Shown: in pieces, positions 7,906 to 24,030 of the stretch
How the letters are laid out: each line of letters starts with the position of its first letter
Position numbering within the stretch: position 1 is the first letter of the stretch
Source of the DNA: an uncultured Opitutia bacterium
GTDB taxonomy: Bacteria; Verrucomicrobiota; Verrucomicrobiia; Opitutales; Opitutaceae
DNA: 40,487 nt
NCBI GenBank assembly: GCA_903855985.1
Contig: CAIOAO010000060.1
Location: 1 to 40,487 of the forward strand
Direction of reading: 5' to 3'
Position numbers and translations under genes: made by a program
The notes under the pieces: generated by a model
Told to the model about the DNA's origin: nothing
The model's input: only the letters and a program-made list of their open reading frames with translations
Database searches by the model: none

Positions 7906-9495
7906 TCAGTCGTTGAACCGGGCGAGCTGCATCAGCTCGTCCGCGATGGCGCGGTCGCTGCGGCAGCGGGGCAGCTTGTTCTGCCCGCCCCACTTGCCGT
8001 GGTGGCGCATCCAGTGCTCGAACACCCCGGGCATGACCAGCCGGGCGATTGGGGCCTCGATGTTGTTGCTCCGGCGCTTCACCTCGTAGTCGGCGTTGCG
8101 CACCTTCAGCTCGGCGTCGAGCTGCACGGCGAGCGTGGGGCCGGTGGGGTTCTGGACGGAGCCGGGGCGCAGCTCGATCCACCACTCGTGCCGGCCGCGG
8201 TTGTTGCCGGTCAGCGAGTCGGTGAACATCGGCGCGACGTGGAAATTGGTGATACTCCAGCCATTGGGCGAGCAGACGGCGAGGAGCGCGTCGGTCAGCT
8301 CCTTCTCAATCACCCGCTCGCCAAACGCATTGAGCTGGAGCCCGGTGCGGCCGGCGTAGATGAGCCGCGGCGGCTCGGTCGAAACGAAGCGCACCATGTC
8401 GCCGACGACATAGCGGCAGAGTCCGCCGGGGGTCGTCAGCACCAGCGCGTAATCCTCGTTGGTCTTCACGCCCTCGAGGGGCACGGCCGACGGGCCGAGG
8501 TTGCCGAGACGGTCCTCGTCGAAATATTTCATCGGCAGGAATTCAAAGAACAGCCCGGCGTCCGCCATCAACCGCAGGCCCTCGACGGGCGTGGCGTCCT
8601 GGGCGGCGATGAAGCCCTCCGATGCGGGGTAGATCTCGTGGAAATGCACACCGGCCCCGTAGGCCCGGCGCAGTTCACCCTGGAACGGTCCGAGGGGCAC
8701 GCCGCTGTGCACGAGGCACTCGAGGTTGGGCCAGATGGTCTGCTGCAGGCTGGGCGCGCGCGACGGACCGGCGGAGCCGCCGGGGCGCAGCGCCTCCGCG
8801 AGGGTCAGCAGCCAGCTGGGCTGGCCGGCGACGAGGGAGATGTCGAGGCGCCGCGTGCGGGCGACGATCGCATCCAGTTTCTTCGACCAGTCGTTCAACT
8901 GCTCGATGTCCGCGCCGGGCTCATAGAGGTGGTGCTCGATCCACTTGGGCAGGTTGAGTGCGATCAGGCTGCTCAGGTCGCCCTCGTAGGCGGTGAACGG
9001 CGCGGCCTCGGGGATGAGCGCGAGGGAATTGGAGCCGCCCAGCAGCAGGTGGCGGCCGTGAAAGACCTTGGTGCTGCCGGTGCGCGCGCAGTAGTAGAGC
9101 AGGGCGTCGCGCGTCGCGCCCCGGAAATGCTCGAGCAGGTCCCAGGTGACGGGCAGCGACTTGACCGGGCCGTCCGTGGTGCCGGGGGTGACCGCATAAA
9201 ACGGACATTGGCCGGGCCAGAGCACGTCGGCGGCGCCGCGCTTCATCTGGTCGATGTACGGCGCGAGGTCCGCATGGGTATGGAGCGGCACGCGCCGCTG
9301 GAACTGCGCGTAGGTCAGGCCGGCCTCGAGGCCCACCTTGCGGCCGAAGGCGGTCTTCGCGAAGGACCGGAGCAGGCGGCGGAACGTGCGCTGCTGCGCG
9401 GGCACCGCCGTTTTCTTCTGGCGCAGCCGCAGGGCGGTGCGGGCCGTTTGCAGGCGCGCGCCTAAAACCATGAGGCTCTTGGGAAGGGCAGGCAT
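7906..9495 (-). CDS. GH3 family adenylate-forming enzyme
   Basis: A 529-residue member of the GH3 auxin-responsive family, ANL-type enzymes that adenylate a carboxylic acid; plant members then join it to an amino acid. The ATP motif appears as TPGTTDGPVKSLPVT (compare SSGTTxGxxK). Later come YPASEGFIAAQD, the LCRYVVGDMVRFV segment equivalent to YRVGD, and IYAGRTGLQLNAFGERV, where the C-terminal domain starts. SLVAGQPSWLLTL is another conserved GH3 stretch. Length is near that of plant GH3 (about 570-600). ATG 9495 fits the family; upstream codons to 9543 look non-coding. In bacteria the acceptor and acid are mostly unknown. It stands alone, facing the thioredoxin gene, with no pathway neighbours to suggest a substrate. 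Confidence 0.87.
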   Translation of the reverse strand: MPALPKSLMVLGARLQTARTALRLRQKKTAVPAQQRTFRRLLRSFAKTAFGRKVGLEAGLTYAQFQRRVPLHTHADLAPYIDQMKRGAADVLWPGQCPFYAVTPGTTDGPVKSLPVTWDLLEHFRGATRDALLYYCARTGSTKVFHGRHLLLGGSNSLALIPEAAPFTAYEGDLSSLIALNLPKWIEHHLYEPGADIEQLNDWSKKLDAIVARTRRLDISLVAGQPSWLLTLAEALRPGGSAGPSRAPSLQQTIWPNLECLVHSGVPLGPFQGELRRAYGAGVHFHEIYPASEGFIAAQDATPVEGLRLMADAGLFFEFLPMKYFDEDRLGNLGPSAVPLEGVKTNEDYALVLTTPGGLCRYVVGDMVRFVSTEPPRLIYAGRTGLQLNAFGERVIEKELTDALLAVCSPNGWSITNFHVAPMFTDSLTGNNRGRHEWWIELRPGSVQNPTGPTLAVQLDAELKVRNADYEVKRRSNNIEAPIARLVMPGVFEHWMRHHGKWGGQNKLPRCRSDRAIADELMQLARFND

Positions 9496-9634
9496 CGCGG
9501 CGGCTGGGTCAGTTAGGCAGTCCCTCCGAGCGGGAAGCCGCAAGTGGATTCCTGCTGCGGCCCCCGAGCTTACGAGGTTTTGACCGCGGCGGAGGGCCGA
9601 ACGGCCCTATTGCAAGCGGGCGGCGGCAGGGGGT

Positions 9635-12409: not shown

Positions 12410-12588
12410 GGGCGGTAACGGTTCCCGGTTCTGATTCCATCGGCAACGCGGAAGTGGTTTGGGCTGGAGGTGTGGTTGCGCGCCTTGTGCAGAAAGCCAG
12501 CACAGCCTGAAACGCGGCCTAATAAAATGTGCCGCGGGCGCCTCGGCAGTTTACTCGGGCCGGGTCGTGGGCATCGTCGGACCACCCC

Positions 12589-14589
12589 ATGACCCCGACC
12601 GTGACGCATTCCGTGGACAGCGATGGCGTGGGCTGGCTGGTGTTCGATGATCCCGCGGCGCGGGCGAATGTTTTCACGCCGGCGGTGTTTGCCGACCTGC
12701 GGGCGGCGCTCGCGGCGCTGGCGGCCCAGCCGGTGAAGGCGGTGGTCGTGATCAGTGCGAAGGAACGCATCTTCATCGCGGGCGCCGACTTGAAATGGCT
12801 GTCCAAGCTGCCCGATGCCGCGGCGGCGAGGGCCGTGGGGCGGGAGGGACAGGCGTGTTTTTCGCTGCTCGCGAATTTCAAGGTCCCGGTGGTGGGCGCG
12901 ATCCACGGGGCGTGCGCGGGCGGCGGGACGGAGGTGGTGCTGGCGTGTCACTGGCGCATCGCCAGCGATGCGCGCGAGACCGTCATCGGCCTGCCGGAGA
13001 ACAGTGTCGGCACGATCCCTGGCTGGGGCGGAACCGTGCGGCTGCCGCGGCTCATCGGCGCGGCGGCGGCGCTCGAGTGCATTTTGAAGGCCACGCTGCT
13101 GTCGGCGCCGGAGGCGCTGCGCACGGGGCTGGTGGACGAGGTCGTCCCCGCGGCCGAGCTCAAGGCGCGGGCCAAGGCGGCCGCGCTCCGGCTGGCGGCG
13201 AGCGGGTGTCCGGCCCGGGCGGTCCCACCGGCGGTGGACGCGGCGTTTTACGCCGGGCTGCGGGCGTCGACGCTCAAGAAAACCCGCGGCCACGAGCCCG
13301 CGCCGATGAAAGTGATCGACGTGGTCGAGGAAAACCTCGGCCTGACCCTCGAGGCGGCGCTGGAGGTGGAGACACAGGCGTTCGGCGAGCTGACCGCGGG
13401 GGACGTCTGCAAAAACCTCATCTATGTTTTCTTCCTGAAGGATGCGGTGAAAAAGCTTTCGGTGGACGCCTGGTTTCCGGCGGCGGTCCCGGCCGCGCCG
13501 GCGCCGTTCCGGAAGATCGGCGTGGTCGGCGCGGGCGTGATGGGTTCGGGCATCGCGCAGTGGTGCGCAGCGCGCGGGCACGACGTCGTGCTGCGCGATG
13601 TGAAGCCGGAGTTCGTCGAGCGCGGCCTGGCGGTGATCCGCGGGGTGTTTGACGAGGCGGTGGCGCGGAAAAAAATGAAACCCGACGCCGCGGCCGCGGG
13701 GCTGGCGCGCGTGAAGACCACCACGGGGTGGGAGGGCTTTGGCGACTGCGACCTCGTGATCGAGGCCATCGTGGAGAACGTCGCGGCGAAGCAGGCGCTG
13801 TTTGCCGAGCTGGCGAAGGTGGTGCGGCCGGACTGCGTGCTGGCGTCGAATACGTCGGCGCTGCCGATCGACGAGCTCGCCGCCACGGCGACGGAGCCCG
13901 GGCGGACGATCGGGCTGCATTTTTTCAACCCGGTGAGCCGGATGCCGCTGGTCGAACTGGTGCTGAGCCCGCACACGGCCCGCGGCACGGCGGAACGGAC
14001 GCTGGCGTTCGCGAAGGCGCTCGGGAAGAGCCCGGTCATCTGCAAGTCATCGCCGGGATTCCTGGTGACCCGCGTGCTGTTTTTCTACCTCAACGAGGCG
14101 TGCCAGTTGTGGGAGCAGGGCGTGTCCACGACGACGATCGACAGCGCGCTGCGCGGCTGGGGCTGGCCGATGGGCCCGATGCGACTGATTGACGAGGTCG
14201 GGGTGGACGTGACGGATTTCATCTTTGGCGAGATGGCGCATTATTTCCCACCGCGGTTCAAAGGCACGAAGGTGTGCGGCCGGATGCTGGCGGCGGGGAT
14301 GAAAGGCCGGAAGAATGGGGCGAGCACGGGGTTCTACACCTATGCCGACGGCAAGGAGGCGCTGAACCCGGCGATGGCGCAATTTGCGTCCGGCGCGAAA
14401 TCGGAGCTGAGCGCGGCGGCGATCACGGAGCGGCTGAACCGCGTGATGATCGACGAGACGAAGCGGGTGCTGGACGAAGGTGTGCTCAAGACGCCGGAGG
14501 ATGCGGATTTTGCGCTGCTGATGGGGGCGGGCTTCCCGGCCTTCCGCGGCGGCCTGATGCGCTACGCGAAGAGCATCGGGGCGGTGTGA
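12589..14589 (+). CDS. Bifunctional enoyl-CoA hydratase / 3-hydroxyacyl-CoA dehydrogenase (FadB/FadJ-like)
   Basis: A 666-residue fatty acid beta-oxidation enzyme. Residues 1-300 are the crotonase domain: the oxyanion loop GADLKWLSK, then HGACAGGGTEVVLACHWRIA with E115, and IGLPENSVGTIPGWGGTVRL with E137. Both hydratase glutamates are therefore kept. Residues 305-666 are the dehydrogenase: NAD motif GVVGAGVMGSGIAQWC, ASNTSALPIDELA, catalytic H444 in GLHFFNPVSRMPLVELV, then SSPGFLVTRVLFFYLNEA and the C-terminal domains, including GWPMGPMRLIDEVG. ATG 12589 gives the family N-terminus; an upstream extension to 12529 is unconserved. The usual thiolase partner is missing from the window. The fused 2-oxoacid dehydrogenase downstream on the same strand would use related acyl-CoA chemistry, for example in branched-chain catabolism, but a 211-base gap separates them. 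Confidence 0.93.
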   Translation: MTPTVTHSVDSDGVGWLVFDDPAARANVFTPAVFADLRAALAALAAQPVKAVVVISAKERIFIAGADLKWLSKLPDAAAARAVGREGQACFSLLANFKVPVVGAIHGACAGGGTEVVLACHWRIASDARETVIGLPENSVGTIPGWGGTVRLPRLIGAAAALECILKATLLSAPEALRTGLVDEVVPAAELKARAKAAALRLAASGCPARAVPPAVDAAFYAGLRASTLKKTRGHEPAPMKVIDVVEENLGLTLEAALEVETQAFGELTAGDVCKNLIYVFFLKDAVKKLSVDAWFPAAVPAAPAPFRKIGVVGAGVMGSGIAQWCAARGHDVVLRDVKPEFVERGLAVIRGVFDEAVARKKMKPDAAAAGLARVKTTTGWEGFGDCDLVIEAIVENVAAKQALFAELAKVVRPDCVLASNTSALPIDELAATATEPGRTIGLHFFNPVSRMPLVELVLSPHTARGTAERTLAFAKALGKSPVICKSSPGFLVTRVLFFYLNEACQLWEQGVSTTTIDSALRGWGWPMGPMRLIDEVGVDVTDFIFGEMAHYFPPRFKGTKVCGRMLAAGMKGRKNGASTGFYTYADGKEALNPAMAQFASGAKSELSAAAITERLNRVMIDETKRVLDEGVLKTPEDADFALLMGAGFPAFRGGLMRYAKSIGAV

Positions 14590-14800: not shown

Positions 14801-17800
14801 ATGCCTGCTGTTGCCTCCCGCCTGTCCACCCCCCTCAAGCGCCGGTTGCTGACGACAATTCTGGAAAGCCGTCACGGCGACCTGCGCGAGGAAAACCTCA
14901 ACCGCCAGGGCAAGGGACACTTCCATGTGTCGGGCCGCGGTCACGAGGCGCTCGCCGCCGCGGGCCTGCAGCTGCAGGCCGACGATTACATTGTGCCGTA
15001 CTACCGCGACCGCGGGCTCATGCTCGGGCGGGGTGTGACGACGAAGCAGCTTGCCCTCGACTACATGGCAAAGCGCGAGTCGTCGTCCGGCGGCCGGCAG
15101 ATGCCGTCCCATTACAGCTATCGCGAGCTGAACATCTGGAGCGTGCCGACGCCGACGGCGGCGCAGCTGCTACCGGCCTGCGGCATGGCGTGGGGCATGC
15201 AGCTGGACGGGAAGAAGAACGTGGTCGTCACAACGGTGGGCGACGCCGCCACGCGGCAGGGGGATTTCTACGAGGCGGTGTGCTTTGCGCAGGAGCGGAA
15301 GCTGCCGGTGCTGTTCATCGTCGAGGACAACGGCTTTGGCATCAGCACGCCGACGCGCCGCACGACGCCGCGCGCGCTCAGCGTGCTCAACGAGGAGCAG
15401 TGGCGCCTGGTCGAGGGCTGGGATGTCGAGGCGGTCCATGCGGCGACGGAAACCGCCCTGGCGGAGATCCGCGCGGGCGGCGGGCCGGTGCTGCTGTGGC
15501 TGAAACTCGAGCGGCTCTCCAGCCACACGAGTTCCGACGACCAGGCCATTTACCGCAGCAAGGAGGAGCTGGCGACGCTCGGGGAGCGCGACCCGCTGCT
15601 GCTGCTGAAAACGCAGCTCATCGCCGAGGGCGAGCTGACCGAGGCCGCGTACGAGACGCTTGACAAGGAGATCAAGGAGCGGGTGCGGCTCGACTACGCC
15701 GCGGCCGAGCTGGCGGAGAATCCCATTGCGAACGAACTCGAGACGAATGTGTCATCGCAGCCCGCGCAGCTCGACGAGCAGGTGCTCCGGCCGGGCAAGT
15801 ACCGGATGGGCGACGTGATCAACCTCACGCTGCGCGCGGGGCTCGACTCGGATCCGGGCCGGTTGATCTTCGGCGAGGACATCGAGGATCCGAAGGGCGG
15901 GGTGTTCCGGCTCACGCAGAAGCTGTCGACGGATTTTCCGGAGCAGGTGTTCAATTCGCCGCTGGCGGAGAGTACGATCCTCGGCGTGGCGTGCGGGCTG
16001 GCGAGTTACGGCAAGCGGCCGGTGTTCGAGCTGCAGTTCATTGATTTCATCTACCCGGGCTGGAACCAGCTCGTGACGAACCTTGCGACGCTCCGCTGGC
16101 GCACCTACGGCAAATGGTCGTGCCCGGTCGTGATCTACGCGCCGTACGGCGCCTACCTGCCGGGCGGTTCGCTCTGGCACTCGCAGGCGAACGAGGCGGC
16201 GATCGCGCATTTCCCGGGGCTCAAGGTGGTCATTCCCAGCACGCCGGAGGACGCGGCCGGGCTGCTCTGGACGGCGATGCATTCGGAGGACCCGGTGATC
16301 TTCCTCGCGCCGAAGCACATGCTTTGGGCCGAGCGCGAGATCGACGAACCCGCGATGGCGGTGCCGATCGGGCATGCGCGCCTGCGCCAGCCGGGCCGCG
16401 ATGTGACGCTGGTGGCGTGGGGCAACACGATGGAGAAATCGCTTGAGGCCGTCGCGGCCGTCGGGGACGCGGTCAGCGTCGAGCTGATCGACCTGCGCTC
16501 GATTGTGCCGTGGGACCACGAGATGATCGAGGAGTCGGTGCGCAAGACCGGCCGGCTCGTGGTGGTGCAGGAGGACACGGAGAACTGCTCCGTCGGCCAG
16601 ATGATCATTTCGCACATTGCGGGCCGGCCCGACGTCTGGAGCCGAATGGTCGCCCCGCCGGTGCTGGTGTCGAAGGGCAACGTGATGATTGGCTACAGCC
16701 CGGTGTACGAATACGCCGCGCTGCCCGATGCGAAGCGCATTGCGGCGGCGTTGCGCCGGGCGCTCGCGACCTCGATCCCTTCGGCCCCATCGGCACAAGC
16801 TGCCCATTCGACAGGCTCAGGGCCCTCGGTTTCTGCTTCCGGCCAGCCGGCGGCACCCCTAAATTCCGCCGTGCCCTCCACCAGCGACATCGTCGTCAAA
16901 GTGCCGATCATGGGCGAAGGGCTGCGCTCCGCCCGGGTCGTGGCGCTGCACAAGCAGCCCGGCGACAAGGTCAGCCACGACGACGTGCTCTGCGAGGTCG
17001 AGACCGACAAGGCGGTTTACCCGATCGAGGCGTCCTTCACGGGCACGTTCAAGGCGTGGAAGATCAAGCCGGACGACACGGTTGAGATCGGCCAGGAAAT
17101 CGCGCTGGTGGCGGGGGATAACGCCCCGGCGGGAGTGGCGCCGAGCGCGCCGGCGGATCACGCGAGTTTGCAGCAGTTGCAGCAGCGGCCCGCGGCCCCG
17201 GCCGTGTCCGCGCCGCCTGGCGAGCGGCGCGAGCCCGCGCTGCCGTCGGCGATCACCCGGCGGCTGGACAGCGTGGTGCCCGCGAACATGGAGATGGACG
17301 TCCGCTATGGTGCGATCCGCCTGGCGCGCGAGACGGCGAAGCAGAAATCGGGCAAGACCGCGCCGTCACCGTCGGTGATGATGGCCTGGTGCGTGGTGCG
17401 CGCGATGGAGAAGCATGCCGCGTTCCGGCGGATCGTGGCCAAGGACGGCGCGATCCTGGAGCACAAGGATTTTGAACTCGGCATCGCGGTGGCGCTCGAG
17501 GGCGACCGGCTGGCGACGGCGGTGATCCGCAAGAGCAACCTCTTCGACTGGCCGGGCTTTGTCGCCGCGTACGCCAAGGCGCTGGAGTCGGCACGCACGG
17601 GCAAGCCCGAGGAAGTGCAGGCGCCGCTGAACCTGACGAGCCTCGGGGCGTTTGGCATCGAGAAGGCGCAGCCCATCGTGGTGCCGCCGGCGATGAGCAC
17701 GCTCTTTGTCGGCACGGCGCACGAGCGGATGATCAACGACGGCGGGGTGATCCACCCCGTGGAAGTTGCCACGCTCTCGGTCACCTTTGACCATCGCGTG

Positions 17801-17875
17801 GTGAATGGCGCGGGCACGGCGGCGTTCCTGCAGGAGCTGAAGGTGCAGTTCGAGAATTTCAAACTGCCGGAGTGA
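14801..17875 (+). CDS. Fused 2-oxoacid dehydrogenase: E1-alpha + E1-beta + lipoyl + E2 core
   Basis: A 1024-residue chain that carries out oxidative decarboxylation and acyl transfer of a 2-oxoacid dehydrogenase complex. About 1-325 is thiamine-diphosphate E1-alpha (HEALAAAGL, YYRDRGLML, VGDAATRQGDFYEA, EDNGFGISTP). About 330-655 is E1-beta (FGEDIEDPKGGVF, FNSPLAESTILGVACGL, PGGSLWHSQANEAAI, RLVVVQEDTENCSVG). About 655-695 is a Ser/Pro/Ala linker. About 695-775 is a lipoyl domain with ETDKA, lipoyl K737. A second linker with a Gln-rich stretch follows. About 820-1024 is the acyltransferase core ending FDHRVVNGAGTAAF (H998). The small E3-binding domain normally between lipoyl and core is not recognisable. 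AGGAG at 14792 supports ATG 14801. The EDNGFGISTP segment leans toward branched-chain substrates, not proven. No dihydrolipoamide dehydrogenase (E3) gene is in the window. Confidence 0.9.
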   Translation: MPAVASRLSTPLKRRLLTTILESRHGDLREENLNRQGKGHFHVSGRGHEALAAAGLQLQADDYIVPYYRDRGLMLGRGVTTKQLALDYMAKRESSSGGRQMPSHYSYRELNIWSVPTPTAAQLLPACGMAWGMQLDGKKNVVVTTVGDAATRQGDFYEAVCFAQERKLPVLFIVEDNGFGISTPTRRTTPRALSVLNEEQWRLVEGWDVEAVHAATETALAEIRAGGGPVLLWLKLERLSSHTSSDDQAIYRSKEELATLGERDPLLLLKTQLIAEGELTEAAYETLDKEIKERVRLDYAAAELAENPIANELETNVSSQPAQLDEQVLRPGKYRMGDVINLTLRAGLDSDPGRLIFGEDIEDPKGGVFRLTQKLSTDFPEQVFNSPLAESTILGVACGLASYGKRPVFELQFIDFIYPGWNQLVTNLATLRWRTYGKWSCPVVIYAPYGAYLPGGSLWHSQANEAAIAHFPGLKVVIPSTPEDAAGLLWTAMHSEDPVIFLAPKHMLWAEREIDEPAMAVPIGHARLRQPGRDVTLVAWGNTMEKSLEAVAAVGDAVSVELIDLRSIVPWDHEMIEESVRKTGRLVVVQEDTENCSVGQMIISHIAGRPDVWSRMVAPPVLVSKGNVMIGYSPVYEYAALPDAKRIAAALRRALATSIPSAPSAQAAHSTGSGPSVSASGQPAAPLNSAVPSTSDIVVKVPIMGEGLRSARVVALHKQPGDKVSHDDVLCEVETDKAVYPIEASFTGTFKAWKIKPDDTVEIGQEIALVAGDNAPAGVAPSAPADHASLQQLQQRPAAPAVSAPPGERREPALPSAITRRLDSVVPANMEMDVRYGAIRLARETAKQKSGKTAPSPSVMMAWCVVRAMEKHAAFRRIVAKDGAILEHKDFELGIAVALEGDRLATAVIRKSNLFDWPGFVAAYAKALESARTGKPEEVQAPLNLTSLGAFGIEKAQPIVVPPAMSTLFVGTAHERMINDGGVIHPVEVATLSVTFDHRVVNGAGTAAFLQELKVQFENFKLPE
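16804..16823. repeat. Repeat-like word inside a coding linker (family G)
   Basis: The sequence TTCGACAGGCTCAGGGC within 16807-16823 looks like one arm of a palindromic intergenic repeat family that I recall from many genomes. Here it is in frame in the linker between the E1-beta and lipoyl domains and encodes about residues 668-675 (HSTGSGP). No matching inverted arm was found nearby. Confidence 0.45.
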
Positions 17876-18751: not shown

Positions 18752-19762
18752 TCAGGGTTTGCGGAACAGGTAGTGGCTGACGATCCACTCCTTGCCGCCG
18801 TGGTAGCCCCAGAGTTCGGCGCAGCTCAGGTAGAACACGCGCCAGTAGGCCCACCACTTGGTGGCGTTTTCCCGGCCGTAGGTGTCGATGAACAGGGGGA
18901 AGATCTCCTCGCGGTGGGCGTCCATGTTCTGGAGCCAGTGCTCGGCGGTCTTTTGGTAGTGCGTGCCGTTGACCTGCCAGTCGGAGACGAGCTTCAGTTC
19001 GTCCTGGAACTGGGGGAGCAGGTCGTGCGCCGGCATCTGGCCGCCGGTGAAGAAATAGCGGCTCATCCAGTCGCTGGGGCCCTCGGAGACAAAGTGGTAG
19101 GAGAAGCGGGAGTGGGTGAAGATGTGGACGAAGAGCAGGCCGCCGGGCTTGAGCCAGCGGGCGATGTTCGCGAAGAGACGCTGGTAGTTTTTCAGGTGTT
19201 CGAACATCTCGACGGACACGACGCGGTCGAACTGGCCGGGGGCGATGTCGAAGGCGTTGATGTCGCAGGTGATGATGCGGAGGTTGGTGAGCCCGCGTTT
19301 CCGCGCCTCGGTGTCGATGAACTCCTTCTGCGTGCGGGAATTGGAGATCGCGGTGATCTTGGAGTGCGGGAAACGCGCGGCGTTGTAGAGGGCGAGGGAG
19401 CCCCAGCCGCAGCCGAGTTCGAGGATGTTCTGGCCGTCGGCCAGTTGGGCGCGCTCGACGTAGAGGGCGAGCATGGCTTCCTCGGCCTGGTCGAGCGTCT
19501 CGGTGCCGGTGGGATAGAGGCAGCCGGAGTATTTCAGGCGTTGGCCCAGGCAGAACTGGTAGAACGGCGTGGCGACCTCGTAGTGCTGCTCGTTGGCGGC
19601 GGCGGTCTGCTCGGCGAGGGCGCGCGTCTTCAGGTCGGCGACGTACGCATCGCGGTTATAGCGCGCGGACTCGTCGCGGAGGCGCTGGGCGACCAGCCGG
19701 CGGATGCCGATGCGGACGAGCCAGTCGGGCAGGAGGTTTTTTTCGAGCAGGGAGTCGAGCAT
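18752..19762 (-). CDS. Cfa-like SAM-dependent methyltransferase
   Basis: A 336-residue class I methyltransferase related to cyclopropane-fatty-acid synthase and coclaurine N-methyltransferase. The SAM-binding motif is ILELGCGWGSLALYNA (about residue 117). QHYEVATPFYQFCLGQ and SGCLYP match the Cfa HYD...YSxAYW region, VVSVEMFEHLKNYQRLFANI follows, then WLKPGGLLFVHIF. It lacks the N-terminal domain of full Cfa (compare the 431-residue gene at 21783). It is the second Cfa-type enzyme in the same operon, so the two may act on different positions or in sequence, for example methylation against cyclopropanation. The ATG at 19762 begins next to a palindromic repeat. The downstream TPR gene follows after two bases. 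Substrate not determined. Confidence 0.88.
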   Translation of the reverse strand: MLDSLLEKNLLPDWLVRIGIRRLVAQRLRDESARYNRDAYVADLKTRALAEQTAAANEQHYEVATPFYQFCLGQRLKYSGCLYPTGTETLDQAEEAMLALYVERAQLADGQNILELGCGWGSLALYNAARFPHSKITAISNSRTQKEFIDTEARKRGLTNLRIITCDINAFDIAPGQFDRVVSVEMFEHLKNYQRLFANIARWLKPGGLLFVHIFTHSRFSYHFVSEGPSDWMSRYFFTGGQMPAHDLLPQFQDELKLVSDWQVNGTHYQKTAEHWLQNMDAHREEIFPLFIDTYGRENATKWWAYWRVFYLSCAELWGYHGGKEWIVSHYLFRKP

Positions 19763-19770
19763 GGTTCGGG

Positions 19771-19860
19771 AGCTATAAGCGATAAGCGGTAAGCTTTAAG
19801 CCGTGAGCGAAGCCGCGAAAAAGGGAGCTTAGCGCTTAAAGCTTATTGCTTAGCGCTTGC
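19771..19860. repeat. Palindromic element, family C (TAAGC words)
   Basis: The left half (19771-19800) is built of AGCTATAAGC, GATAAGCGGT, AAGCTTTAAG. The right half (19828-19860) is its imperfect inverse, with a perfect 10-base core CTTAAAGCTT (19835-19844) against 19791-19800. The right arm contains the stop codon and last codons of the DUF1295 gene. A half copy lies at 30424-30462. Confidence 0.8.
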
Positions 19861-20652
19861 CGCCGGCGGCCGCTTCGGCGGCCAAGGCACGAACGCACTC
19901 GTGGTCGACTGGTAGCGGCGGTAGGCGTCGCCGCGGCTGCGGAGGCTTTGTTCTTCGGTCATCGGTATGCCTGTTACGCGCAACAGCAGGTAAAGGATGC
20001 TGGCGGGACCGATAATCGCGACCCAGCCCCACGGAGAGCCGAGGGCGAAGACGAAATAGGCGACCCAGATGAGCCACTCGAAAAAGTAGTTCGGGTGCCG
20101 GCTGTAGTGCCACAGGCCGACGTCGCAGACCTTCCCCTTGTTGGCGGCCTGGCGCTTGAAGGCGGCGAGCTGGGCGTCGGCGAGGGCCTCGCCGCTGATG
20201 GCGATGAGCCAGAGGGCGGCACCGGCGAGTTCCAGCGGGTGCAGGGCGGGGGTGGGATTGAGGCAGGCGATGAGGAAGGCGGCGCCGAGCAGGACGACGG
20301 ACCCGGCCTGCATCTGGAAAAAGCCGGCCATCTTGGTGGTGAAGTTTCCCGCCCAGTCCTTGCGCAGCTGCTGGTAGCGTCCGTCCTCCACCGGGTGGTG
20401 CCCGATCACGCGGATGGCGAGATGCGTGCCGAGCCGGGCGCTCCAGAGGACGGCCATGGCGGCGAGGAGCGCGCGGCGGACCGGCCAGCCGGGACCGGCG
20501 AGGGCGTAGAAGGCCGCGAGGGCGCCGAACGCGTACGACCACGCGATGTCCACGATGCCGTAGTTGTCCATCCGGCGGGCGACGAGGTAGAGCAGGCCGA
20601 AGGCGGCGCAGAGGCCCGCGAGCGCGATCAGCAGCAGGGTGAGCGGGCTCAT
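19843..20652 (-). CDS. DUF1295 steroid-5-alpha-reductase-like membrane protein
   Basis: A 269-residue polytopic membrane protein of the DUF1295 family, structurally related to steroid 5-alpha-reductases and isoprenylcysteine methyltransferases. The N-terminal SPLTLLLIALAGLCAAFGLL is the first membrane segment; NYGIVDIAWSYAFG follows. The C-terminal signature is present: VCDVGLWHYSRHPNYFFEWL, then WVAYFVFALG, ILYLLLRVTGIPMTEEQSLR and RGDAYRRYQSTTSAFVPW. The SRHPNYF and YRRYQ motifs match the NADPH/SAM-binding end of the superfamily, so an enoyl-type reduction of a lipid is plausible. The ATG overlaps the DUF2062 stop (ATGA), so the pair is coupled. The last residues, ASAKQ, are encoded by a palindromic repeat arm. 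In this cluster a reductase for a methylene or unsaturated lipid intermediate is the natural guess. Confidence 0.85.
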   Translation of the reverse strand: MSPLTLLLIALAGLCAAFGLLYLVARRMDNYGIVDIAWSYAFGALAAFYALAGPGWPVRRALLAAMAVLWSARLGTHLAIRVIGHHPVEDGRYQQLRKDWAGNFTTKMAGFFQMQAGSVVLLGAAFLIACLNPTPALHPLELAGAALWLIAISGEALADAQLAAFKRQAANKGKVCDVGLWHYSRHPNYFFEWLIWVAYFVFALGSPWGWVAIIGPASILYLLLRVTGIPMTEEQSLRSRGDAYRRYQSTTSAFVPWPPKRPPAASAKQ

Positions 20653-21203
20653 GATGCGGTCGGCGGGGGATCCGCCGGCGGGGTTTTCTCCGCCTTGTGC
20701 TTGAGGTAGGTGACCTCGCGGGTGATGGGCAGTGCGATGTAGTAGACGAGGGCGATGTAGAACGGCGCGATGATGGCCCAGGCGACGACGGCGTACATCA
20801 CGGTGAGGCCGAACTGGCGGAAGAACAGGTTGGGGTCGTTCCAGACGATGTCGGACATTTTCCGCAGGTAGCGGATGTTGATGTGGACATGGGGTGCGCC
20901 GAAGATGGCCTCGCCGATCCAGATGCAGCCGAAGATGGCCGGAAAATGCGCGGGCCAGAGCGCCTGGTTGATGAGCTGGACGATGGGCTGGTTCAGCCGC
21001 AGGGCCCAGGCGATCAGGAAGCAGAGCAGCGTGGTGGTGCCGAGAACCGGAAAGAGGGCGAACGCGCTGCCGACGGCGAGGGTGAGGGCGATCTTTTCCG
21101 GCGTGATGCCCTGCGTCAGCTGGGCGACGATCGGGTCGCGCACCCGCCGCTGCCAGAAATTGCGCCGGGGGGCGGGTGGAGAATGAGGGTGGGTTTCTGG
21201 CAC
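20649..21203 (-). CDS. DUF2062 domain membrane protein
   Basis: A 184-residue protein with the DUF2062 core. TQGITPEKIALTLAVGSAFA precedes LFPVLGTTTLLCFLIAWALRLNQP, and two or three more hydrophobic segments follow (PAIFGCIWIGEAIFGA, LTVMYAVVAWAIIAPFYIAL). The loop with P-V-L-G-T-T is the most conserved family feature. Function of DUF2062 is unknown; it is often fused to or near glycosyltransferases and lipid enzymes. Here it lies between DUF1475 and DUF1295, the latter overlapping by four bases. The start ATG 21203 is followed by a Pro-rich cytoplasmic N-terminus. A membrane-scaffold or lipid-passage role in the cluster is only a guess. Confidence 0.85.
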   Translation of the reverse strand: MPETHPHSPPAPRRNFWQRRVRDPIVAQLTQGITPEKIALTLAVGSAFALFPVLGTTTLLCFLIAWALRLNQPIVQLINQALWPAHFPAIFGCIWIGEAIFGAPHVHINIRYLRKMSDIVWNDPNLFFRQFGLTVMYAVVAWAIIAPFYIALVYYIALPITREVTYLKHKAEKTPPADPPPTAS

Positions 21204-21268
21204 AACCGTAAATGGCTAAACGACGCTGCCGGCCGGCACAAGCCGTGTTCGCGTCCGGTGGGTTACGA

Positions 21269-21676
21269 TCAGCGGCGCGGCAAACCCAGCAGGGTGACCG
21301 TGAGGCCGAGGACGGCGAGGGCGACGCCAAGTTTGCTGATCCCCTCGCGCCGGGTCGTCAGCACGTCGGCGATCCGGCCGTCGCGGGGCACGCGGAAGAG
21401 TTCCCGGAGGCAGTAGGCGGACATGGCGAGGTTGCCGAGGAGGATAATGGCGAAGAACCAGGCGAGCTTCGCGATCCACGAGGTCTGCTTGAAGGCGACC
21501 CAGACATAGAAGGTGACAAAGCCCCAGTAGGCGTCGAAGAGGGTCGCGATGAACCACGGATGCGTGAAGACGTCGCGCGGAATGGCGAACAGCGGGCACT
21601 GCAGGCTGGCCCAGCTCGTGACCCACAGCATCGTGGCGATGATGACAACGAAGAGTGCGCGGAGGAAGAGGATCAT
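21269..21676 (-). CDS. DUF1475 family membrane protein
   Basis: A 135-residue protein with about four transmembrane segments: MILFLRALFVVIIATMLWVT, IATLFDAYWGFVTFYVWVAF, LAWFFAIILLGNLAMSAY and LGVALAVLGLTVTLLGL. The pattern ATLFDAYWGFVTFYVWV...K with AMSAYCLRELF matches DUF1475, small membrane proteins found near Cfa-type genes in several bacteria as far as I recall. No catalytic residues can be named. It sits between cfa (upstream in transcription, with a 106-base repeat-bearing gap) and DUF2062. It is probably co-transcribed. Confidence 0.75.
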   Translation of the reverse strand: MILFLRALFVVIIATMLWVTSWASLQCPLFAIPRDVFTHPWFIATLFDAYWGFVTFYVWVAFKQTSWIAKLAWFFAIILLGNLAMSAYCLRELFRVPRDGRIADVLTTRREGISKLGVALAVLGLTVTLLGLPRR

Positions 21677-21696
21677 TTTGGGAAACTGTCGGCGAT

Positions 21697-21785
21697 CAGC
21701 TTTCAGCGGTCAGCTTGCGGAATTTGAGATTGTGACCCGGCGGGTGGCTCGGAGCTGAAAGCTGAGAGCTGACCGCTGAGAGCTA
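21697..21785. repeat. Palindromic element, family D (AGCTGA words)
   Basis: A perfect 13-base inverted pair, TCAGCGGTCAGCT (21703-21715) and AGCTGACCGCTGA (21767-21779), lies within longer imperfect arms. The right end reaches the stop codon of cfa (21783-21785). It lies between cfa and the DUF1475 gene in the lipid operon. Confidence 0.8.
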
Positions 21786-23078
21786 GAAAGAAATATTGTT
21801 CGCCCGGGTGTGCAGGGTCTGGACGACGGAGATGTTGCGCATGGCGAAGGCGGCTTCGCAGTAGCCGAGGTAGTAGCTCCATTTGCGGATGAAGCGCTCG
21901 TCGAAGCCGAGGGCGCGCACCTCGGTGAGGCGGGCGCGGAAGTTTTCGTGCCACGCGCGGAGCGTCGACACGTAGTCGTGGCCGGAATCCTCGACGCCAT
22001 GGAGCACGAAGCCGCCGGCGCGGGTGAGCTGGTCGTTGACGCGGTTGAGCGAGAGCAGCAGCGAGCCCGGGAAGATGTGCTTCTGGATGAAGTCCACGCC
22101 GCGGCGGAACTGGTCGTAGCGTCCGTCGGGGCAGGTGATGAACTGGAGGGCGAGCAGGCCATCGGGTTTCAGGACGCGGCTGAGGGTCTCGCAGAACGCC
22201 GGCAGGTAGCGGTGGCCGATGGCTTCCATCATTTCGATCGAGACGATCTTGTCGAAGCGGCCGGTGAGGTCGCGGTAGTCGCAGAACTTCACCTCGACGC
22301 GGTCCGTGAGTCCGGCGGCGGCGACGCGCGCGGTGGCGAGGTCGAATTGCTGCTGCGAGATGGTGACGGTGGTGACGCGGCAGCCGTACGTCCGGGCGGC
22401 GTGCATGGACCAGCCGCCCCAGCCGCTGCCGATCTCGAGGATATGGTCGGTGGGGACAAGGCGGAGCTTGCGGCAGAGGGCATCGTTTTTCTCCCGCTGC
22501 GCCTCGGCGAGGGACATGCCCGGGCGCTTCCAGTGCGCGCCGGAGTACATCATGGACGGGTCGAGGAAGAGGGCGAAGAAGTCGTTGGAGAGATCGTAGT
22601 GCTCGCTGATGTTGCGGCGGGCGGTGGTGCGGGAGTTGGGCCGGAGGAGATGGCCGACCCGGTTGCCGAAGCGAAGGAGGTTCAACGCGAGCGAGCGGGC
22701 GCGCTGGGAGCCGGAGAGCGTGGGGGCGTGCTCGAGGTTGAGGATGAACCAGGCGATGACGGCGGCGATGTCGGTGGTTTCCCAGTCGCCGTCGATGAAC
22801 GACTCGGCGAAGCCGATATCGCCCGACCAGAAGCATTTGCTGAAAAACGCCGGCCGGAGCACGCGGATCGTGGCGAGGGCGGGCAGGCCGAGCGGGAGGG
22901 AGACCTCGGTGGAACGCGCGCCGAATTCGCGGGCGTCACCGTTGGGCAGCTCCAGGCGCAGGTGGCCGCGCGGCATGGCGGTGAAGGCGTCGAGGACGGC
23001 GCGCTGGATGAACGTGCCGCTGGGCTGGCGGGCGTAGTCGGCGACGATCGGCGTGGAAGGAGTGGGGGGCTGGCTCAT
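21783..23078 (-). CDS. cfa: Cyclopropane-fatty-acyl-phospholipid synthase
   Basis: A 431-residue Cfa that transfers the methyl carbon of S-adenosylmethionine across the cis double bond of membrane phospholipid acyl chains. The N-terminal lipid-binding domain (about 1-135) includes FSKCFWSGDIGFAESFIDGD, then WETTDI. The catalytic part begins NISEHYDLSNDFFALFLDPS, followed by MMYSGAHW. The SAM motif is ILEIGSGWGGWSMHAA, and the conserved acidic segment is KIVSIEMMEAIGHRYLPAF. The C-terminal FIQKHIFPGSLLLSL and FIRKWSYYLGYCEAAFAMRN complete the family pattern. Length is normal (about 380-430). It is the centre of the lipid operon, directly after DUF1365 and the FAD oxidoreductase. The same partners are joined in some plants, where an FAD oxidoreductase domain is fused to Cfa. 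Confidence 0.93.
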   Translation of the reverse strand: MSQPPTPSTPIVADYARQPSGTFIQRAVLDAFTAMPRGHLRLELPNGDAREFGARSTEVSLPLGLPALATIRVLRPAFFSKCFWSGDIGFAESFIDGDWETTDIAAVIAWFILNLEHAPTLSGSQRARSLALNLLRFGNRVGHLLRPNSRTTARRNISEHYDLSNDFFALFLDPSMMYSGAHWKRPGMSLAEAQREKNDALCRKLRLVPTDHILEIGSGWGGWSMHAARTYGCRVTTVTISQQQFDLATARVAAAGLTDRVEVKFCDYRDLTGRFDKIVSIEMMEAIGHRYLPAFCETLSRVLKPDGLLALQFITCPDGRYDQFRRGVDFIQKHIFPGSLLLSLNRVNDQLTRAGGFVLHGVEDSGHDYVSTLRAWHENFRARLTEVRALGFDERFIRKWSYYLGYCEAAFAMRNISVVQTLHTRANNISF

Positions 23079-23136
23079 GCAGGTTGGGCCCGCCGACGTT
23101 CCGCTGCGGCGGAATGAAGGCGTGGCGGTTTTTGGT

Positions 23137-24030
23137 TCAAAAATTGGAAGGAGCGGAGGGGGCGAGGGAGGAGTGCGGGCGATAGAGCCCGCGCTGGTCA
23201 GCGGCCCGGGCGGACTTGGCGAACCACGGGACGCGTTTCAGCCAGAGCCGGAAGGCGTGCCAGTGGATGAGGGCGATGATGCGGAGGGTGATGAGCGGAT
23301 ATTTCACCAGGTACCAGGCGAGGCGGGCGCCGGTGAGTTCGCGGCGCGGGCCGTTGAGCGTGCTGGTGAGCGTGCGCTCGGTCCCGATGTAGTCGTCTAT
23401 CTGGATGGAGAGCTTTTCCGCAGGCGGGTGCAGGGCGAAATCGAAGGCGACATCCACGTCGGTGTAGGGGGAGACGTAGAAATTCTTGGGCGTCCGGAGC
23501 CGGAACGCGCCGGCGGAGTCAGCGGCTGCGGCGTTGACGGGAGTTGAAAGCGGGGCCGGGCGCGTGTCGGGGCCGAGGAAGTAGGGCTTCATCTCCTTGA
23601 ACGTGTTGGTGACCTCGGCGAGGGCGGCGACGGGGGCGCCAGTCCGGTCGTAGCAGAAATAAAACGACACGGGGTTGAAAAGGTAGCCGAGGACGCGCGG
23701 GAGGGTGACCAGCATCACGCGTCCGCCGGTGAGATCGACGCCGCGGGCGGCGAGATAGGCCACGACGCGTTGTTTGAGGGACGAGTGCCCAGAAACGAGT
23801 GACGAGCTGTCGGGCGTGCCATTGTGAAGCGGCTCGCTCGTCGGGAGAAAATCGCGCTCGCGGAAGGAGTAGAGATTGGGGCGGTTGACGGAAAAGAGGG
23901 CGAAGCGGCGGTGGAGCAAGTCGAGCTCGTCCAAGTCGATCGCAAACAGGAAGATCCGATAAAGGAACCGGTGCGGCCGCGGGGAGAAACGCGCGTGCAT
24001 GATATGGCACTCGTAGAGACAGGAATTCAT
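23137..24030 (-). CDS. DUF1365 family protein
   Basis: A 297-residue protein of DUF1365, a family that almost always sits beside the FAD oxidoreductase and Cfa genes. It begins NSCLYECHIMHARFSPRPHR, then FLYRIFLFAIDLDEL, the diagnostic start, followed by LVTLPRVLGYLFNPVSFYFC, ALAEVTNTFKEMKPYFLG and KNFYVSPYTDVDVAFDF. The tail ends KYPLITLRIIALIHWHAFRL. The function is unproven; relatives belong to oxidative-stress lipid operons. ATG 24030 is chosen over 24093 because conserved residues begin there. Residues 74-84 (SSLVSGHSSLK) are encoded by repeat-like DNA (23778-23808) and should be a surface loop absent from relatives. Confidence 0.87.
   Translation of the reverse strand: MNSCLYECHIMHARFSPRPHRFLYRIFLFAIDLDELDLLHRRFALFSVNRPNLYSFRERDFLPTSEPLHNGTPDSSSLVSGHSSLKQRVVAYLAARGVDLTGGRVMLVTLPRVLGYLFNPVSFYFCYDRTGAPVAALAEVTNTFKEMKPYFLGPDTRPAPLSTPVNAAAADSAGAFRLRTPKNFYVSPYTDVDVAFDFALHPPAEKLSIQIDDYIGTERTLTSTLNGPRRELTGARLAWYLVKYPLITLRIIALIHWHAFRLWLKRVPWFAKSARAADQRGLYRPHSSLAPSAPSNF
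23778..23808. repeat. Repeat-like words inside DUF1365 gene (family F)
   Basis: The words GGACGAGTG (23779-23787) and AACGAGTGACGAG (23794-23806) form a short tandem, resembling intergenic repeats made of GAGTGACGAG units. It is in frame and encodes the Ser-rich loop SSLVSGHSSLK. Confidence 0.55.

Follow-up and report, generated by a model that had tools for sequence, protein, structure and literature searches.

A conserved E1-alpha/E1-beta/lipoyl/E2 fusion protein of Opitutales, probably a one-chain 2-oxo acid dehydrogenase without a detectable E3-binding domain

Introduction

Can a 2-oxo acid dehydrogenase work as a single chain, without the domain that docks its partner enzymes? The question is raised by a gene on a stretch of 40,487 nucleotides from an uncultured Opitutia bacterium (assembly GCA_903855985.1, contig CAIOAO010000060.1; hereafter the window), in which both halves of the decarboxylase (E1-alpha and E1-beta), a lipoyl domain and the acyltransferase (E2) are read in one frame. 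In textbooks, 2-oxo acid dehydrogenases exemplify enzymes that remain separate chains and are gathered on an E2 scaffold by a binding domain; a conserved one-chain version without this peripheral subunit-binding domain (PSBD) offers a natural way to gauge the importance of the scaffold and of the dock for dihydrolipoyl dehydrogenase (E3). The reading favoured here, with moderate confidence, is that the fusion is a self-contained, probably branched-chain-type 2-oxo acid dehydrogenase that would form acyl-coenzyme A (acyl-CoA) and use E3 in trans without a PSBD, its substrate and acceptor being judged from sequence comparison.

An intact frame with complete active-site motifs

The gene is a single uninterrupted forward-strand frame (14801-17875) of 1024 amino acids (aa) with no internal stop. 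AGGAG lies four bases upstream of its ATG start, and its GC content at codon positions 1/2/3 (0.68/0.46/0.89) is coding-like and typical of the window's genes. Pfam assigns E1_dh (residues 27-306), Transket_pyr (335-507), Transketolase_C (524-647), Biotin_lipoyl (699-768) and 2-oxoacid_dh (822-1021, covering profile positions 24-228 of 232); the only other match is a weak, overlapping one to DXP_synthase_N. The frame and these five domains bear out a first-pass annotation of the window, made from its letters alone, which had described the four parts as one intact chain.

The E1 domains come with the thiamine diphosphate (ThDP) glutamate and two catalytic histidines, and the E2 domain with a catalytic histidine and its Ser/Thr and Asn/Asp helpers. 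When the window protein is aligned with 45 relatives, H242, E390, H460, K737, H998 and N1002 are invariant (46/46), and equivalents of the first three also occur in all 51 rows of the E1 set described below; we take H242 to be the E1-alpha loop histidine, E390 the ThDP glutamate and H460 the E1-beta histidine. The first-pass choices of K737 (in ETDKA) as lipoyl lysine and H998 (in FDHRVVNG) as acyltransferase histidine thus hold across the family. Residue 946 is threonine in 27 members and serine in 19, and T946/H998/N1002 align to S558/H610/N614 of Azotobacter vinelandii E2p, residues whose variants were solved. The HTSSDD...YR signature is retained in the E1 part, and LipA is encoded in the source genome. 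The Mg-binding residue 148 is aspartate in 27 members and glutamate, unusual for a ThDP/Mg motif, in 19.

A full-length AlphaFold2 model built from 46 sequences (mean predicted local distance difference test score, pLDDT, 78.9; predicted template-modelling score, pTM, 0.63) shows E1, E2 and, at about 696-772, the lipoyl domain as folded parts. Residues 659-694 and 774-803, between folded domains, have pLDDT below 50, and both linkers are predicted to be disordered; linker 2 contains one short modelled helix (790-794) and nothing PSBD-like. Modelled alone, the E2 part reaches pLDDT 87 and matches solved cubic, 60-meric, trimeric and hexameric E2s alike, with no clear winner (Z 21.6-25.7: 25.7 for the E2 of Mycobacterium tuberculosis branched-chain 2-oxo acid dehydrogenase (BCKDH), 25.1 for hexameric E2p, 24.8 for OdhA, 24.5 for the human 60-mer and 24.2 for Azotobacter E2p). 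A fold search with the whole chain puts E1-type and other ThDP structures on top and carries little information on the E2 part. Were E1 to form an (alpha-beta)2 dimer and E2 a trimer, assemblies would come in multiples of six chains. In the first-pass annotation each corner of a 24- or 60-mer was imagined to carry its own E1, a possible arrangement that the fold comparison neither favours nor disfavours.

A conserved family in Opitutales

The fusion is a conserved family whose architecture is common in Opitutales. All 52 loci from a GTDB-wide scan are titled verrucomicrobial (Opitutae/Opitutia, Opitutales, Opitutaceae, Puniceicoccaceae, Coraliomargarita, Cephaloticoccus or Verrucomicrobia unspecified); because exact peptides of the window protein were used, the scan finds close relatives only, and the verrucomicrobial restriction applies to those. 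A frame interruption, the weakness the first-pass annotation had foreseen, is absent from the window and rare elsewhere: 47 loci are open (45 at full or nearly full length, and two cut short by a contig end), two more include unread bases, and the three broken ones (L033, L060, L063) all come from draft assemblies. The aligned members are 97% to 47% identical to the window protein and all carry the five Pfam domains (46/46). The fusion was found in 10 of 11 other genomes of the same genus, G001 being the one in which it was not, and in 62 of 252 Opitutaceae genomes, spread over 13 of 49 genera. The first-pass description of the architecture as unusual stands for the open-access literature searched but not for Opitutales, where it is common. 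In that literature, searches for a fused E1/E2 and for beta-ketoacyl-acyl carrier protein synthase III (KASIII) with lipoyl and alpha-keto acid dehydrogenase domains returned no title on either fusion apart from OdhA.

Several variants were noted alongside. Longer open frames surround the fusion at G200:C1:3272943-3276113 (1580 aa) and G212:C12:1118717-1121173 (1408 aa), reflecting either a further domain or merely an open upstream region. The same genus also has another, distant fusion that combines E1alpha, E1beta and lipoyl in this order but lacks E2; it is recognized by Pfam at L074:6236-9550 and L071:7212-9764 and by similarity at L066:1-2190 (cut by the contig start) and L072:4809-7610. 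At L071 a separate short E2 frame follows. G001 encodes a 360-aa lipoyl-E2 chain with no PSBD detected (L085:2466-3545, +). At L069:4272-7119 (-), a phytanoyl-CoA dioxygenase-like frame lies between E1-alpha and E1-beta genes in what appears by eye to be a carbohydrate-like cluster.

The missing binding domain and the supply of E3

Canonical E2 chains carry the PSBD (Pfam E3_binding, PF02817) between lipoyl domain and core, an arrangement absent from the fusion. PF02817 was found neither in the whole protein at E ≤ 1 nor in residues 764-843 searched alone at E ≤ 10, a threshold at which the filters of HMMER still discard most very weak hits, and none of the 46 family members matches it at E ≤ 1; as a control, it matches both canonical E2s of the source genome (contigs 6 and 4). 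The first-pass impression that the linkers lack a PSBD is thereby confirmed for the window protein, including the second linker, where finding such a domain would have refuted it, and extends to the family.

A partner protein could in principle supply the dock, and PF02817 was searched in eight fusion-bearing genomes. In four of them (G053, G305, G518 and G203; 1-2 contigs, 99-100% complete) it matches only two frames per genome, whose 399-468 aa correspond to canonical E2 length; in the others (G000, G009, G153 and G361) a third match falls in a frame of just 171-222 aa. Since PSBDs occur only in two E2-length frames in the first four, no dedicated PSBD partner was found there. In at least four genomes E3 must then, we infer, serve the fusion without a detectable PSBD in the fusion itself or in a dedicated partner, either as free E3 or as E3 on the pyruvate dehydrogenase (PDH) and 2-oxoglutarate dehydrogenase (OGDH) complexes. 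The first-pass mechanism is supported in part: its argument that a covalently attached E1 needs no binding domain and that E3 docks in another way is reasonable, no dedicated PSBD partner having been found in those genomes. The flanking sequence of the 52 loci, which extends to 6 kb at most and is frequently shorter, likewise gave no lipoyl-PSBD homologue at E ≤ 1e-10.

Contig 17 of the source genome encodes a free-standing 162-aa lipoyl-PSBD protein without acyltransferase (L082:552-1040, -), adjoining frames that resemble kdsA and pyrG by eye. Of 252 Opitutaceae genomes, 221 have homologues, often in frames of at least 500 aa, so the protein may be a shortened E2. As an obligatory E3 dock it was rejected: its homologues are far more widespread than the fusion, and with at most 14 candidates scored in each genome none was found at E ≤ 1e-10 in the near-closed, fusion-bearing G053, G305 and G518. 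Such a protein could serve the fusion in genomes that have it. The SLQQLQ pattern of linker 2 was likewise rejected as a general docking motif, being matched in only 19 of 46 members.

Relatives with other acyl acceptors

Related E1-lipoyl units occur in front of different acyl acceptors. In the phylum, 62 of 387 genomes contain a match at E ≤ 1e-100; score and span assign 27 of these to the window type, and the other 35 match at 35-42% identity. Twenty of those 35 loci were sampled; in 19, KASIII (ACP_syn_III_C) lies in the same frame, and the twentieth, L091, is cut by a contig end and was excluded from the E1 tree and the motif count. The 19 (L087:1897-5403 (-), L088-L090 and L092-L106) have open frames of 1107-1521 aa and belong to 19 Verrucomicrobiota genomes, four of the window's order. 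L087, the one scanned in full, contains E1_dh, Transket_pyr, Transketolase_C, Biotin_lipoyl, ACP_syn_III and ACP_syn_III_C, and passes the NCBIfam cut-off for beta-ketoacyl-ACP synthase 3 (262.8 vs 249) while falling below that for fabH (229.5 vs 292.1). All 19 have the His and Asn motifs of KASIII (HQAN, NTSS). A pattern search recovers the Cys motif in 17, and inspection by eye adds the remaining two, in which F replaces Y; the lipoyl-lysine motif is present in 18 by pattern and in the last by eye. The E2 and KASIII types never occur together at E ≤ 1e-100 (62/62 genomes with one match), which, given the relatedness of the genomes, argues only weakly for replacement of one by the other. Replacement of the stand-alone KASIII by the fusion was rejected, as all 20 genomes examined also have a stand-alone KASIII. 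The KASIII chains would possibly permit a CoA-free start of fatty acid synthesis.

A tblastn search against plasmids points to a second set of relatives: among the best 15 of 748 records, the first five are Streptomyces, at 39-47% identity. L107 (14962-20000), L108 and L109 have fused E1 alpha and beta (667-677 aa) directly before a very large gene whose first domains are lipoyl and E2, and the equivalent frame of L114, which is unannotated, opens in the same way; in L107 a PP-binding domain and a ketosynthase follow lipoyl-E2 in the same chain. By eye, the stretch before the Streptomyces E2 is PSBD-like, with no Pfam match. L107 and L108 neighbour genes for aminodeoxychorismate synthase, chorismate mutase, prephenate dehydrogenase, a methyltransferase, an AMP-ligase, a DegT aminotransferase, ornithine cyclodeaminase and a P450; these clusters look streptogramin-like and fit the pristinamycin gene list in the passages of PMC6963833 drawn on, gene-by-gene equivalence being presumed. 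Most of these genes were not seen around L109. In that paper the starter of type A streptogramins, which SnaE1 loads, is isobutyryl-CoA rather than a 2-oxo acid (PMC6963833). The Streptomyces loci may represent a 2-oxo acid dehydrogenase loading system.

The E1 tree (51 rows, including 18 of the 46 family members and 11 other E1s as outgroup) was built by a quick method with Shimodaira-Hasegawa-like approximate likelihood-ratio (SH-aLRT) support and no bootstrap; long branches are flagged, including the join of clade and outgroup, and five KASIII rows have unusual composition. Window, KASIII and Streptomyces types each fall on one side of a branch (support 100), window and Streptomyces types are sisters (99), and all three stand apart from the other E1s (100). 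In the E2 tree (29 rows, careful method, 17 of the 46 members), the window type is recovered at 97/97, and together with the Streptomyces type at 100/99 against eight other E2s. The agreement of the two trees favours common descent of the E1-E2 pair. One E1-lipoyl lineage thus appears to sit before three different acyl acceptors: E2, E2-ACP-ketosynthase and KASIII. This shared lineage was beyond the reach of the first-pass annotation.

These relatives raise the question of whether the window's E2 passes its acyl group not to CoA but to an acyl carrier protein (ACP) of fatty acid or polyketide synthesis, as its Streptomyces sister probably does, which would make the protein a direct loader of branched starters. 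Both trees make Streptomyces proteins the sisters of the fusion, the L107 chain runs on from lipoyl-E2 to a carrier domain and ketosynthase, and the verrucomicrobial chains join a similar E1-lipoyl unit to KASIII. A sister-group relation does not transfer the acceptor, however; CoA is the acceptor of canonical E2s of this fold, and no ACP or KAS domain was found among the neighbours scanned (ten window frames and nine frames of five other loci). Direct ACP loading by the window protein is on balance unlikely. A wider proposal can be made tentatively: E1alpha-beta-lipoyl may be an acyl-loading module with exchangeable acceptors, namely E2 in Opitutales, E2-ACP-ketosynthase in Streptomyces and KASIII in other Verrucomicrobiota, with the KASIII chains, and perhaps the window protein via ACP, starting branched fatty acid synthesis from a 2-oxo acid through acyl-lipoyl, without free acyl-CoA or an E3 dock. 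The wider clade suggests that synthases of fatty acids and polyketides can be fed directly by a lipoyl arm; if true, CoA would not be an obligatory intermediate, and the family would offer ready-made loading modules for branched starters.

Substrate and likely role

A branched-chain-type role for the fusion is the most likely because the genome has a separate PDH and SucB and the fusion stays below the PDH/OGDH cut-offs. The source-genome PDH on contig 6 exceeds the NCBIfam equivalog cut-offs (E1alpha 413 bits against 394; E2 468 against 445), as does SucB on contig 4 (521 against 379), with Lpd nearby. The fusion reaches 5-60% of the listed PDH/OGDH cut-offs and does not qualify as a pyruvate dehydrogenase equivalog. 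The best solved match of both E1 halves is a Thermus 2-oxo acid dehydrogenase titled branched-chain. A branched substrate would also agree with the sister loci L107 and L108, which lie in streptogramin-like clusters, the type A starter being isobutyryl-CoA (PMC6963833). A second pyruvate dehydrogenase in fused form would agree with the nearest NCBIfam names (PDH E1 alpha and beta) and with the E2 part being closest by sequence to solved A. vinelandii E2p; it is nevertheless improbable, as the curated cut-offs are widely missed (206.5 vs 411; 210.6 vs 454; 105.6 vs 722) and the genome's own PDH is above cut-off.

Another donor has been described for two-component transketolases. As reported for NapB/NapD and QncN/QncL, a transketolase-like E1 could move a two-carbon glycolyl unit from a ketose phosphate to the lipoyl group, and the step in NapB/NapD-type transketolases is reportedly lipoyl-tethered. 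The fusion keeps both E1 histidines and the HTSSDD...YR signature, its best solved matches are 2-oxo acid dehydrogenases, and transketolases match the E1-beta part only, weakly (best 6e-16 vs 1e-68). Enzymes of this two-component type that supply a peptide synthetase with a hydroxyethyl unit taken from ketose phosphate do exist (PMC7570522, in the part drawn on), yet a glycolyl loader is very improbable here.

In a branched-chain-type dehydrogenase of this form, E1 would use ThDP to decarboxylate its 2-oxo acid, most likely a branched-chain one, and would transfer the acyl group reductively to the lipoyl group on K737. The acylated arm would swing on linker 2 to the E2 active site (T946, H998, N1002), where the acyl group would pass to CoA, and the dihydrolipoyl group would be reoxidized, without a PSBD, by soluble E3 (Lpd) or by E3 on PDH/OGDH complexes. 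The branched acyl-CoA might prime iso/anteiso fatty acids, or arise in branched-chain amino acid breakdown, a role in keeping with the FadJ-like neighbour of some members. In the portions of the descriptions drawn on, iso or anteiso acids are among the major fatty acids of described Opitutia strains, and most of these have iso- or anteiso-C15:0 among them; in one Lacunisphaera species iso-C15:0 makes up no more than 9.1%, with iso-C14:0 and anteiso-C15:0 also present (PMC5303756, PMC12193912).

Several points weigh against this assignment. The E1 clade lies apart from two alphaproteobacterial BCKDH references, which fall with the outgroup E1s (long branches, quick tree), and the E2 part is 21-27% identical to five other E2s tested, including the genome's own PDH E2 and SucB. 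The acceptor may not be CoA, since the sister E2 gene of L107 continues to a carrier protein. No lpd homologue was found at E ≤ 1e-10 in the flanks of the 52 loci, which span at most 6 kb. With the fusion in a minority of Opitutaceae genomes (62 of 252), it is not needed for branched lipids generally.

Genome neighbourhood

Of the 52 loci, 21 have a FadJ-like homologue (identity at least 58%) in the upstream flank, and the fusions at all of these share at least 66% identity with the window protein; a further match at 31%, in L034, was excluded from the count. The distance between the FadJ-like gene and the fusion ranges from about 20 bases to more than 5 kb, and many loci have less than a full flank. 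In the window the two genes are 211 bases apart with an inverted repeat between them, so an operon is not implied; the repeats on both sides of the fusion gene (Table 1) may be terminators or a repeat family. Conserved neighbourhood was rejected as a guide to function. Nearby frames at five other loci resemble kinases, glucose-6-phosphate dehydrogenase, metal-binding, FIST and glycosidase-like proteins and a FAD oxidoreductase, and one has no match. Two further groups in the window were noted: a lipid-modification-like group downstream on the other strand, and a protein of the GH3 family, which is familiar from plant hormone-conjugating enzymes. Homologues of this GH3 protein flank the fusion at 9 of 52 loci.

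Table 1. Positions of the fusion gene, its domains and neighbouring features in the window
Feature	Residues	Position	Strand	Remarks
GH3 family protein		7909-9606	-	
FadJ-like enoyl-CoA hydratase/3-hydroxyacyl-CoA dehydrogenase		12529..14589	+	upstream; possible functional partner of the fusion
Inverted repeat		14597-14624/14667-14694		28 nt, 82%
E1alpha-E1beta-lipoyl-E2 single-chain 2-oxo acid dehydrogenase (probable)	1024 aa	14801..17875	+	frame, Pfam, family, AlphaFold2 model
E1-alpha domain	~10-315 (E1_dh 27-306)	14828..15745	+	H242; Mg/ThDP motif G147-D148...D176-N177
Mg-binding Asp148	148	15242-15244	+	
E1-beta domain	~327-656	15779..16768	+	E390, H460
Linker 1	657-695	16769..16885	+	64% Ala/Pro/Ser; predicted disordered; 30-82 aa across family
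Lipoyl domain	~696-772	16886..17116	+	lipoyl lysine K737
Linker 2	773-807	17117..17221	+	no PSBD; carries SLQQLQ; 17-46 aa across family
E2 acyltransferase domain	~808-1024	17222..17872	+	T946, H998, N1002
Inverted repeat		17889-17906/17962-17979		18 nt, 94%
Lipid-modification-like group		18755-23237	-	two cyclopropane-fatty-acid synthase-like proteins, DUF1295, DUF2062

Comparison with known systems

The heterotetrameric E1 plus E2 systems of PDH and BCKDH (Thermus, Geobacillus, Pseudomonas, human) share domain families and catalytic residues with the fusion, whereas theirs are separate chains and their E2 has a PSBD between lipoyl domain and core, as in the genome's own PDH and SucB. The NapB/NapD type is set against the fusion by description rather than sequence, its features being a ketose phosphate donor and transfer to a carrier protein.

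The KASIII chains resemble the window protein in the E1 part (over the matched span), in neighbouring tree position and in the lipoyl domain that comes next, and differ in having KASIII with Cys-His-Asn motifs where the window protein has E2. The Streptomyces systems belong to the same E1 clade (L107-L109) and E2 clade (L107-L109, L114) and already have E1 alpha and beta fused; unlike the window protein, they have a gene break between E1 and lipoyl-E2, and their lipoyl-E2 opens a very large synthetase gene.

The nearest studied precedent, which the first-pass annotation did not name, is OdhA, an E1-E2 fusion without a lipoyl domain. OdhA carries its E2 domain at the N-terminus, its E1o part assembles into homodimers, and E2p supplies the lipoyl groups in trans (PMC10415282). 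OdhA likewise combines E1 and E2 activities in one polypeptide with E3 outside the chain, and its E2 is among the matches of the E2 model; the window protein departs from its E2o-E1o order, running E1alpha-E1beta-lipoyl-E2 with its own lipoyl arm. By analogy, OdhA's reliance on E2p lipoyl groups may parallel the service of the fusion by E3 in trans. What is new is the combination: a lipoyl arm, both E1 halves and E2 in one chain, within a clade that changes its acyl acceptor.

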